Assembly: GCF_014201145.1 (NCBI RefSeq)
Contig: NZ_JACHDP010000001.1
Span: forward strand, 2,666,001 to 2,730,000
Direction of reading: 5' to 3'
Length of the DNA stretch: 64,000 nucleotides
Origin: Micromonospora parathelypteridis
GTDB lineage: Bacteria > Actinomycetota > Actinomycetes > Mycobacteriales > Micromonosporaceae
Shown: positions 19,355 to 21,692 of the stretch, in pieces
How positions within the stretch are numbered: the stretch's first letter is position 1
How the letters are laid out: each line of letters begins with the position of its first letter
The notes under the pieces: generated by a model
Seen by the model: the letters and a program-made list of their open reading frames with translations, nothing else
What the model was told of the DNA's origin: nothing
Databases searched by the model: none
Translations under genes and position numbers: made by a program

Positions 19355-19675
19355 TCAGGCGACAGTGACGCCAACCTCGTTGACACCCCGGCCTGCGGTG
19401 ACGGCCGTGTCGCCGTTGCCGTGCCGGGACAGCGCCCGAAGCGTCCAGGTGCCCGGCGCGGCGAAGAACCGGAACTGGCCGGCCGCCGAGGTCACCACCT
19501 CGGCGGTGAACTCACCGGTCGAGTCGAGCAGCCGGACGTACGCGCCCGGCACCGGCTCGTCCTCAGCGGAGCGGACGATGCCGGTGATCACGGTTTCCTT
19601 CTCCAGGTCGAGGCTGGCCGGCAGCGGCGCGGCCTGATCCGGTGCGGCGCAACCCGCGGCGATGGGAAGAGTCAT
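19355..19675 (-). CDS. DUF1416 protein (SseC-like)
   Basis: 106 aa beta-rich protein of the DUF1416/SseC family. Sequence shows a transthyretin/carboxypeptidase-regulatory-like repeat: ITGIVRSAEDEPVPGAYVRLLDSTGEFTAEV and GQFRFFAAPGTWTLRALSR. In mycobacteria SseC always follows the thiosulfate sulfurtransferase CysA2/CysA3, as here where the two genes are 2 bp apart. Function is unproven; it may assist the sulfurtransferase. Expected to be controlled with cysA2 by the Cys leader. Confidence 0.88.
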   Translation of the reverse strand: MTLPIAAGCAAPDQAAPLPASLDLEKETVITGIVRSAEDEPVPGAYVRLLDSTGEFTAEVVTSAAGQFRFFAAPGTWTLRALSRHGNGDTAVTAGRGVNEVGVTVA

Positions 19676-19677
19676 GA

Positions 19678-20526
19678 TCAGACCTCCCCGGGTTCGTCGC
19701 CGAGCGCGACCGGCACGCCGACCAGCGAGCCGTACTCGGTCCAGGAACCGTCGTAGTTCTTGACGTTGCGGTGGCCCAGCAGCTCCTGCAGCACGAACCA
19801 GGTGTGCGAGGAGCGCTCACCGATGCGGCAGTAGGCGATGGTCTCCTTGCCGTCGTCGAGCCCCGCGTCGCCGTAGATCCGGCGCAGCTCGTCGTCGGAC
19901 CGGAAGGTGCCGTCCTCGTTGGCCGCCTTCGACCACGGGACGCTGATCGCGGTGGGGATGTGACCGGCCCGCTGCGCCTGCTCCTGCGGCAGGTGGGCGG
20001 GGGCGAGCAACCGGCCGGCGAACTCGTCGGGGCTGCGCACGTCGACCAGGTTCTTGGTGCCGATCGCAGCGACCACCTCGTCGCGGAAGGCCCGGATGGA
20101 GCTGTCCGGCTCCTGCGCGACGTACTGCGTCGCCGGGCGGGACACCGCGTCGGTGACCAGCGGGCGAGCATCCAGCTCCCACTTCTTGCGACCGCCGTCG
20201 AGCAGCTTCACGTCGCCGTGCCCGTAGAGCTTGAAGTACCAGTACGCGTACGCGGCGAACCAGTTGTTGTTACCGCCGTAGAGGATGACGGTGTCGTCGT
20301 TGCTGATGCCCCGCTCGGAGAGCAACGCCTCGAACTGGGTCTTGTTGACGAAGTCCCGGCGGACCTGGTCCTGCAGGTCGGTCTTCCAGTCAATCTTGAT
20401 GGCGCCAGCGATGTGGCCGGTGTCGTAGGCCGAGGTGTCCTCGTCGACCTCGACGAAGACGACGCCCGGGGCGCCGAGGTTCTTCTCGGCCCACTCGGCC
20501 GAAACGAGTGCGGTGTCGCGACTCAT
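19678..20526 (-). CDS. Thiosulfate sulfurtransferase (tandem rhodanese, CysA2-like)
   Basis: 282 aa with two rhodanese domains. The C-terminal catalytic loop is CRIGERSS with the persulfide Cys near residue 236; the N-terminal domain is inactive (GGNNNW in place of the loop). Transfers sulfane sulfur from thiosulfate or another donor to thiol acceptors. ATG 20526 is preceded by AGGGAGTG; a frame from 20562 exists but is less likely. A leader peptide and hairpins lie upstream (20664-20824), so expression is probably Cys-controlled. Confidence 0.92.
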   Translation of the reverse strand: MSRDTALVSAEWAEKNLGAPGVVFVEVDEDTSAYDTGHIAGAIKIDWKTDLQDQVRRDFVNKTQFEALLSERGISNDDTVILYGGNNNWFAAYAYWYFKLYGHGDVKLLDGGRKKWELDARPLVTDAVSRPATQYVAQEPDSSIRAFRDEVVAAIGTKNLVDVRSPDEFAGRLLAPAHLPQEQAQRAGHIPTAISVPWSKAANEDGTFRSDDELRRIYGDAGLDDGKETIAYCRIGERSSHTWFVLQELLGHRNVKNYDGSWTEYGSLVGVPVALGDEPGEV

Positions 20527-20663
20527 CGAATCACTCCCTGGTGAGGATGGATGGTGAGCCAACGCGCGAGTATCGATGGGTGTAGCTGTCGCACCACGCG
20601 CGGGACCCAGCGGAAGGACGGGATCACGGGTTCGTGCGACGGCGCCGCTGCCGGTCGTTCGGT

Positions 20664-20716
20664 GGGTTCACCGGAAGGTGCGAGAACCCTGTGCCGGTGG
20701 CCGCCGTCAGGCGGCC
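20664..20716 (-). promoter_or_regulatory. Hairpins between Cys leader and cysA2 (putative attenuator)
   Basis: Two stable stem-loops: GGCCGCC/GGCGGCC (20699-20705 and 20710-20716), about 17 nt after the leader stop, and GGGTTCACC paired with GGTG...GAACCC (about 20664-20690). Together with the leader they make a plausible attenuation or ribosome-access switch. No clear T-run follows, so control may be by translation or Rho. The rest of the 20527-20663 gap shows nothing more. Confidence 0.45.
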
Positions 20717-20732
20717 GGAGACAGCCCCGCCG

Positions 20733-20810
20733 TCAGATGACGGGGCGACACAGGCAGGTGGCCACGCGGCACAGGTCGACCGCGCGCCGTTTGGTGAGGT
20801 GGGTCCCCAT
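20733..20810 (-). CDS. Cysteine-rich leader peptide (cysA2 attenuator)
   Basis: 25-codon frame on the minus strand starting at ATG 20810. The peptide ends RAVDLCRVATCLCRPVI and carries three Cys and three nearby Arg codons (Cys at 14, 19, 21), the signature of the actinobacterial VDLCR-type leader peptides found upstream of sulfur genes. A TAGGCT -10 box 8 nt upstream predicts a leaderless message, as described for polycysteine leader ORFs of the mycobacterial cysA2 operon. Ribosome stalling at Cys codons when Cys-tRNA is low would change the downstream fold and raise cysA2-sseC expression (inference). Confidence 0.8.
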   Translation of the reverse strand: MGTHLTKRRAVDLCRVATCLCRPVI

Positions 20811-20818
20811 GGGCAGGG

Positions 20819-20824
20819 AGCCTA
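20819..20824 (-). promoter_or_regulatory. -10 box of the cysA2 leader transcript
   Basis: TAGGCT on the minus strand, with GTGGCA 17 bp further upstream as a -35-like element. Its position puts the transcript start at or next to the A of the leader ATG. Confidence 0.55.
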
Positions 20825-20903
20825 CCAGCCGGTGACCGTGCTGCCACTGGGCCGACCACCATCCGGGAATGACCCGGCCCGCCGGCCGGACCGGCGTCGC
20901 ACC

Positions 20904-21692
20904 TCAGCCAGCGGAATTGATGGGTACGTTCTTCGCGTCGGCGGTGACCGCCAACCCTTCCGGCAGTGGTCGAACCTCCCGGACGGCGAGCTGGAACGGC
21001 AGGTCGGGCAGGGGTACGTCGATGGAGATGCTCTTCGCGTAGTTGCTCAGGAAGGCGCGGGCCAGCGGCAGGTTCGGCAGACCCGCGGCGTCCAGGTCGT
21101 TGAACCGCAGGGCGACGGCGCCGTTGTCGGCGACGGTGACGTCGGCGGTGCCGCTGATGGTGAGCTTCTGACCGAGGATGTCGGCCGGGGCCGTGACGGC
21201 CAGCTTGCCGTTCTGCTCGCCGAGGGTGAGCCCGGGCCGCTTCAGCAGTGCCGCGAGACTGTCGTAGCTGATCGTGCCGGTGCCCTTGACGGTGTCCGCG
21301 ACGACATCCCCCTGGCCGCTGCGCAGAGTGTCCAGCGAGGCACGCACGTTGCGAGCATCCACGTCCAGCACCGGCAACTGCACCGCGCCGCCCTCGACCG
21401 AGGCCTGCACGTCCCGCAGCTTGATGGTGATCCGTTCGTAGCGGCCGTCGAGCACCTGGGTGAGGAACGGAATTCCGGCCACTTCCACGTCGGGCCTGGT
21501 GGACTGCGCGCCCTGCTTGGCGACCTCCTGGCTGACGCGGTCGGCAATGGTCCGCTCGGCCACCCCGACCGCTACCCGGTCCGCGACCACCAGCAACCCC
21601 GCCAGCAGCAGGAGCAGAACGAACAACCCGATGAGCAGCTTGCGACCACGCCGCCGGGGCCGGACCTCACTCGCCGGATACTCCTGCGCCAC
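20904..21692 (-). CDS. lmeA: LmeA-like DUF2993 phospholipid-binding protein
   Basis: 262 aa. A basic N-terminus (RPRRRGRK) is followed by one helix at about 19-40 (LLIGLFVLLLLLAGLLVVAD), a signal anchor, then the DUF2993 domain (VEVAGIPFLTQVLDGRYERITIKL). The mycobacterial homologue Rv0817c (LmeA) sits in the periplasm, binds phospholipids and is needed for lipomannan maturation. GGAGG lies 4 nt before the GTG. Gene order beside cysA2 and glnR matches mycobacteria. Confidence 0.85.
   Translation of the reverse strand: MAQEYPASEVRPRRRGRKLLIGLFVLLLLLAGLLVVADRVAVGVAERTIADRVSQEVAKQGAQSTRPDVEVAGIPFLTQVLDGRYERITIKLRDVQASVEGGAVQLPVLDVDARNVRASLDTLRSGQGDVVADTVKGTGTISYDSLAALLKRPGLTLGEQNGKLAVTAPADILGQKLTISGTADVTVADNGAVALRFNDLDAAGLPNLPLARAFLSNYAKSISIDVPLPDLPFQLAVREVRPLPEGLAVTADAKNVPINSAG

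Follow-up and report, generated by a model that had tools for sequence, protein, structure and literature searches.

A short reading frame with three cysteine codons lies upstream of a sulfurtransferase gene in Micromonospora parathelypteridis, raising the question of whether it is a regulatory leader and, if so, which of its codons does the sensing and how the signal could reach the gene. We analysed it within a stretch of 64,000 nt (the window). The leader ORF (MGTHLTKRRAVDLCRVATCLCRPVI, followed by a stop) occupies 20733..20810 on the minus strand, with its ATG at 20810, its stop codon at 20735-20733 and cysteine at positions 14, 19 and 21 of its 25 codons. A -10 box, TAGGCT, lies 8 nt upstream of the ATG (20819..20824, minus strand). 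The gene downstream (19678..20526, minus strand) encodes a sulfurtransferase with two rhodanese matches (PF00581, E 3.2e-34), and a second gene, with a DUF1416 domain (PF07210, E 7.7e-42), follows at 19355..19675 on the same strand. The ORF with its three cysteines, the box and its spacing, and the sulfurtransferase target had all been proposed in an earlier note made from the sequence alone, and each was confirmed. We take the two downstream genes to be those named cysA2 and sseC.

The cysA2 start at 20526 was picked on the basis of a Shine-Dalgarno-like AGGGAG (20534..20539, minus strand) and leaves an untranslated region (UTR) of 206 nt between the leader and cysA2. Upstream of the leader, an LmeA-like protein is encoded at 20904-21692 on the minus strand (PF11209, E 1.1e-32). 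A consensus scan of 20400-20950 gave no sigma-70 promoter, that is, no match to a -35 box, and 0 terminator-like sites, that is, no U-tract terminator. An Rfam search over 12 kb returned a single match, to mir-341 (19351-19287; E 0.076, 25.6 bits vs. a gathering score of 90), which was taken as chance.

Family membership and promoter geometry

The leader ORF matches the NCBIfam model NF042933 (Ms5788A family Cys-rich leader peptide) over its whole length with 63.6 bits (E 9.4e-18, cut-off 45) and therefore falls in a family already named by NCBI. It also matches NF042934 (cis_reg_atten, putative leader peptide) with 40.1 bits against a cut-off of 27. Leader matches over the cut-off were found in 111 of 150 Micromonosporaceae genomes and in 0 of 14 control genomes; at E up to 1 they were found in 149 of the 150, yet in 6 of the 14 controls too. 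A phylum-wide search gave matches at E up to 1e-6 in 21 of 296 genomes, 11 over the cut-off, and in 0 of 14 controls. We compared 130 Micromonosporaceae loci, namely the 111 above the cut-off plus 19 that scored lower. By tblastn, cysA2 was present in 126 of them and was not found in the stretch at L142, L143, L144 and L152. A script parsed 112 of the 130 for the leader and the cysA2 start, the 18 dropped being L116, L140, L142-L144 and L146-L158, and counts out of 112 refer to that set.

A TANNNT box precedes the leader ATG by 6-8 nt in all 112 parsed loci (8 nt in 90, 7 nt in 21 and 6 nt in one, a later in-frame ATG having been taken as the leader start by the parser at some loci), while at spacings of 6-9 the chance level is 0.6% of UTR positions. 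None of the 112 loci showed a word resembling a Shine-Dalgarno sequence within 20 nt upstream of the parsed leader start. Comparison thus shows the -10/ATG geometry to be conserved, and the leaderless layout claimed previously fits this architecture: the leader ORF is probably leaderless.

A single UGU codon and a conserved peptide core

If the leader senses cysteine, its cysteine codons need not contribute equally. Counting from the conserved Asp, D+9 is the ninth residue past it, which in the window's leader is Cys21 (UGU, 20748..20750, minus strand). This last cysteine is encoded by UGU in 112 of 112 cysA2 leaders, whereas UGU encodes Cys14 (D+2) in 9 of 112 loci and Cys19 (D+7) in 5 of 111, one locus having Ala there; at D+10, the count of UGU among cysteine codons is 0 of 28. 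The background in the window is 17 UGU among the 114 cysteine codons of 41 long ORFs, selected by length and by G+C at each codon position. The codon-level conservation across the Micromonosporaceae that the earlier note had proposed to look for holds for the last cysteine, which is UGU throughout, but not for Cys14 and Cys19, which show no UGU bias, and the note's three-cysteine pattern is not supported as the sensor.

The same codon recurs in other leaders of the family. In 63 distinct leaders, which overlap the cysA2 leaders in part and were found with a pattern that demanded Cys at D+6 to D+9, D+9 is Cys in all 63 and is encoded by UGU in 61 and by UGC in two (L178 and L217). A set of 28 leaders outside the RAVDLCRV type, collected with no Cys required, has Cys at D+9 in 27, with UGU in 25 of those 27; the sole leader without it, L218, is probably a chance match. 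The D+2 residue is variable in these 28, with Cys in 7, and the cysteine of the VDLCR motif, to which a sensing role had been ascribed, was rejected as the sensor on this ground. Thirty-one further places were then counted, among them duplicates of leaders in the set of 63 (L259-L261) and four leaders from loci already in hand that had gone uncounted (L236, L238, L243 and L255). The motif is present at 30 of the 31 (L265 has none), with Cys at D+9 in 29 of the 30 and UGU in 29 of 29. The other one of the 30, the family leader L257, has UGA in place of the D+9 UGU. Because the NF042934 model favours a terminal Cys, the presence of cysteine was partly chosen by the search; the choice of codon was not. 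On these comparisons, which show the UGU to be nearly invariable, cysteine is most probably sensed at one site, the UGU of codon 21. UGU and UGC are decoded by the same tRNA-Cys in bacteria, and the preference for UGU is left unexplained by the usual codon-counting account of cysteine leaders.

That account, applied here, would have the three cysteine codons jointly sense Cys-tRNA as in poly-Cys leaders, the rest of the peptide being irrelevant. Five Mycobacterium-like leaders of the NF042933 family do carry 7-8 cysteine codons, and the window's leader has its three within eight codons. We nevertheless consider such a plain codon run quite unlikely, given a codon choice that singles out D+9, a D+2 cysteine in just 7 of the 28 other leaders and a non-cysteine core that is conserved at the protein level. 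We compared this 13-codon core (LTKRRAVDLCRVA) among the 112 loci, the five poly-Cys (Mycobacterium-like) leaders and eleven Streptomyces-like cysA2 leaders. Between the three bacterial families, the mean numbers of differences over the 13 codons were 6.2-6.7 synonymous vs. 0.25-0.39 nonsynonymous, while 35 of 117 random single changes are expected to be synonymous. Since changes in the core are overwhelmingly synonymous, the comparison shows selection on the peptide itself and not just on the cysteine codons.

The core stays constant across families while the number of cysteines varies: three in 80, four in 31 and two in one of the 112 Micromonosporaceae leaders; the Streptomyces-like leaders have two, and the five poly-Cys leaders have seven or eight. 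Conservation of this kind suggests a contribution from the nascent chain and, as in arrest peptides, the conserved nascent-chain motif stands at a fixed distance from the proposed stall codon. Tentatively, the leaders of this actinobacterial family may be cysteine-tuned arrest peptides, a reading we put forward as possible but rather doubtful, with stalling predicted from comparison: R-x-x-[VI]-D-L-x-R, placed nine residues (Asp to Cys) before the single UGU, would make the ribosome pause there. If so, one codon and one peptide would report cysteine supply for many different sulfur genes, and the mycobacterial poly-Cys run would be a lineage-specific elaboration. Across genera and target genes, what selection maintains is the core of the peptide together with a single synonymous codon choice. 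Strong conservation at the peptide level would also suit a small protein that acts in trans, with the UTR incidental, but the adjacency to sulfur genes, the constraint on UGU and the pairing of the stop region described below all point to action in cis, and we regard a trans-acting peptide as very improbable.

Predicted alternative pairings between the leader and cysA2

The earlier note had placed two hairpins after the leader, and both fold. Hairpin A, at the stop codon (20746-20724), has a predicted energy of -16.6 kcal/mol (z -3.5, 0/200 shuffles as good; z -2.85 and 3/200 when two bases are added) and is conserved. Its 5' arm, element 1 (GCCCCGTC; 20739..20746, minus strand), folds with element 2 (GACGGCGGGGCTGTC; 20720..20734, minus strand), which begins inside the stop codon. 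Hairpin B (GGCCGCC-TGAC-GGCGGCC; 20699..20716, minus strand) has -16.4 kcal/mol (z -2.8, 0/200 shuffles as good). A pattern search found it in 15 of the 112 loci, 14 of these being among the 21 closest relatives. Covariation, which the note had named as decisive for the stem-loops, left signs in hairpin A, where native arms outdid swapped ones (p=0.013, uncorrected), and in hairpin B within close relatives only, where a variable pair is C-G in 11, T-A in three and T-G in one of the 15 loci. A column covariation scan of 70 loci was set aside as dominated by relatedness. We rejected hairpin B as the core of a mechanism because it is nearly confined to close relatives, and the two-hairpin layout is not what is conserved: the post-stop sequence has its conserved partner further downstream.

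Conservation within the UTR falls on a block near 20652-20588, about 70 nt beyond the post-stop sequence. The parts that had been assigned to 20733..20824 are real, but the putative attenuator region reaches past 20733 to the cysA2 start at 20526. Element 3 (GGCAGCGGCGCCGTC; 20638..20652, minus strand) is the predicted partner of element 2, and its CCGTC is conserved: of the 112 loci, 96 have TGACGG, 106 have CCGTC in the UTR (resampled UTRs give an expectation of 54%) and 91 have both. When the post-stop bases were paired with the remaining UTR without selection, the best duplex averaged -23.1 kcal/mol vs. -19.9 for resampled UTRs over the 112 loci, and in 46 of them it ranked third or better out of 51. 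We also aligned 70 loci, chosen by patterns containing CCGT, and assembled a group of 74 for which GCC-GTCG (or AAC-GTCGTAC) plus a closing stem was required. Among the 38 of the 112 loci that did not enter this group, the unselected duplex averaged -20.9 vs. -19.7 kcal/mol. Across the alignment, GACGG:CCGTC is paired in 70 of 70 loci, and one pair of the flanking GCTG:CAGC is GC in 38, AT in 14, GT in 11 and unpaired in 7. Element 2 finds its best duplex on the element 3 block in 68 of the 74 loci, which were chosen for GTCG there. Because both sets of patterns contain part of element 3, the invariance at that element is partly selection.

Swap tests were run on 16 clusters of the 74 loci, with nine tests and uncorrected p-values. 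The 2:3 duplexes averaged -24.1 kcal/mol with native partners, -22.9 with swapped ones (p=0.028) and -16.0 with a shuffled partner. Element 4 (GGGTCCCGCGCGTGG; 20594..20608, minus strand) and element 5 (CGCGCGTTGGCTCA; 20555..20568, minus strand) gave p=0.006 for 4:5 (uncorrected), while the four pairings that had not been proposed gave p=0.19 to 0.93. For 3:4, native arms were no better than swapped ones over the 16 clusters (p=0.79). Hairpin 3:4 (GTCGCAC...GTGCGAC; 20588..20640, minus strand) is of modest stability in the window, at -21.4 kcal/mol (z -1.6, 15/200 shuffles as good). Its base stem keeps pairing through sequence changes (GTCGCAC:GTGCGAC, GTCGCTC:GAGCGAC and GTCGTAC:GTACGAC) in loci that were chosen for the stem. 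A T-rich, terminator-like tract follows 3:4 in 8 of the 74 loci (L055, L060, L062, L064, L067, L091, L096 and L097).

A pairing of CTGTGCC in the leader with GGCACAG in the UTR, spotted by eye, was dropped because close relatives differ in that part of the UTR. In several Streptomyces-like cysA2 leaders (L165-L176), the post-stop sequence appears by eye to be complementary to a nearby downstream stretch, for example GCGGAAG...CTTCCGC, which may be a local version of the same pairing idea.

Taken together, the locus is likely to be a cysteine-linked leader-peptide attenuator, as judged from its sequence and its relatives. The comparison shows complementarity for both 1:2 and 2:3 in most loci, and the explanation that serves best as a whole, which we hold to be somewhat probable, is a stall at UGU21 that switches between 2:3 and 3:4 and turns cysA2-DUF1416 on when cysteine is short. 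A leaderless transcript would start at or beside the leader ATG and be translated immediately. When Cys-tRNA is short, the ribosome would halt with the Cys21 UGU in its A site, probably aided by the conserved TKRRAVDLCRVA nascent chain; it would then mask element 1 and leave element 2 free, so that 2:3 would form and hairpin 3:4 would be weakened, and with 2:3 paired cysA2-DUF1416 would be expressed. When cysteine is sufficient, the ribosome would move on to the stop codon and mask element 2, so that hairpin 3:4 could form and expression would drop. Hairpin 3:4 could act at the level of transcription, whether Rho is involved or not, or at that of translation.

We folded the RNA ahead of the ribosome, up to the end of 3:4, at the 74 loci. 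The index for 2:3 was ~1.0 when any of D+8 to D+10 occupied the A site, 0.65 at Cys19, 0.59 at D+11, 0.51 at D+5, 0.17 at Cys14 and 0 at the stop codon, so that structure too favours the last-cysteine region over Cys14. The mean for 3:4 was 0.36 at Cys21, 0.38 at D+5, 0.56 at Cys14, 0.61 at Cys19, 0.81 at D+11, 0.65 at the stop codon and 0.55 without a ribosome. It was higher at the stop codon than at Cys21 by more than 0.1 in 51 of the 74 loci and lower by more than 0.1 in 9. The contrast between Cys21 and the stop codon was kept with footprint edges of 10 and 16 nt, Cys19 acting like Cys21 at 16 nt, and most of it was lost when the 17 post-stop nucleotides were shuffled. The window's own sequence ran in the direction opposite to the proposal, with values for 3:4 of 0.53 at Cys21 and 0.26 at the stop codon, and reached 0.97-0.99 at D+11 and D+12.

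The output step could be translational, with the alternating helices masking or exposing the start of cysA2 by way of element 5, which is partly complementary to the ATGAGTC of that start. The 70 aligned loci show this complementarity. At codon 2 of cysA2 (20523-20521), 108 of the 112 loci have AGT, a rare Ser codon (29 of 727 Ser codons in the long ORFs of the window), and element 5 is missing from all four loci with AGC and from 30 with AGT (Fisher p=0.007, uncorrected for kinship). The available text of a review (PMC9031893) and of a research paper (PMC13236596) also describes the M. smegmatis case as translational. Against this stand a swap test for pairing of element 5 with the cysA2 start (5:6) of p=0.06, uncorrected, and an accessibility of the cysA2 Shine-Dalgarno sequence and AUG that, in equilibrium folding of the 112 loci, was unchanged with ribosome position. 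Sequestration of the Shine-Dalgarno sequence by equilibrium folding through the cysA2 start was rejected for the latter reason, and we regard translational control as plausible but on balance not probable.

A further possibility is that Rho terminates transcription in the UTR, at a place that translation of the leader exposes or hides, which would suit the absence of a U-tract terminator from the scanned region. In the part of their paper available to us, Seliverstov et al. (2005; PMC1262725) predict cysteine-run leaders without terminators before mycobacterial cys operons and put Rho forward for them. Termination of this kind does not require the conserved 2:3 complementarity, however, and we think it unlikely at this locus. 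The switch between 2:3 and 3:4 makes use of that complementarity and remains our preferred reading.

Target genes and relation to known leaders

Six of the 23 leader matches (E up to 10) in the window's own genome were inspected. Apart from the window's leader, the cut-off is passed by L010 (33.5 bits); L011, L012, L013 and L017 (23.1, 20.5, 17.2 and 15.3 bits) fall short of it and were selected visually for their pattern. All five have an RxxVDLxR-like...C(UGU) pattern. They precede genes for, in order, an M14 peptidase, a Cons_hypoth698 membrane protein, a family-3 solute-binding protein, a DUF1684 protein and a NIR_SIR (sulfite/nitrite) reductase. A scan for target families at 18 of 23 loci with a downstream ORF added NIR_SIR, PALP, luciferase-like monooxygenase, NMT1-type (sulfonate-type) binding proteins, SBP_bac_5, SDF symporter and 2OG-Fe(II) oxygenase; the ORF downstream of L231 matched no family at 1e-10. 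By their predicted families, several target genes fit sulfur or amino-acid uptake, the rest being less clear-cut, and the leaders may provide shared control of a set of sulfur-linked genes in each genome.

Like a trp-type attenuator, the locus is predicted to form exclusive helices that share the post-stop sequence, 1:2 and 2:3 both using element 2; unlike one, it has no U-tract terminator before the gene (0 sites in 20400-20950). The uORFC-8-2 element before cysS in Rhodobacterales is likewise a uORF with cysteine codons and stems and, in the portion of the report available, is regarded by its authors as a case of ribosome-mediated attenuation, but it has two tandem cysteine codons with UGC dominant and a U-run terminator, and belongs to another phylum (PMC8632094). 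NF042934 leaders share the RR-x-V-D-L-x-R core and the D+9 cysteine with the window's leader and differ from it in forming a broader family with other target genes. Our literature search, which lay largely outside subscription papers, found no report of a D+9 UGU rule or of the leader in Micromonosporaceae.

The polycysteine leaderless attenuators of mycobacteria, reportedly described by Canestrari et al. in 2020, resemble the window's leader in the short ORF, the leaderless layout (predicted here) and the target gene, and the Mycobacterium-like loci compared here share its peptide core. They have contiguous cysteine codons, which the window's leader lacks, and it has in addition a 206-nt UTR with conserved alternative pairing. 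According to the accessible parts of papers that cite that work (PMC9031893, PMC13236596 and PMC9094748), attenuation in M. smegmatis responds to cysteine, and Shell et al. (2015; PMC4633059), in the text available, report a leader before Rv0815/cysA2 and, in M. smegmatis, ribosome occupancy of the locus. The window's leader probably works as the polycysteine attenuators do. Lacking a contiguous run, it is filed under NF042933 and not as a polycysteine attenuator. The kinship with mycobacterial cysteine leaders that had been suspected is upheld by this shared family, whose Mycobacterium-like members carry a poly-Cys run in place of three dispersed cysteines. The leader family is already named in databases, and the window's leader, over the curated cut-off across its whole ORF and upstream of cysA2, is a member of it with three dispersed cysteines.
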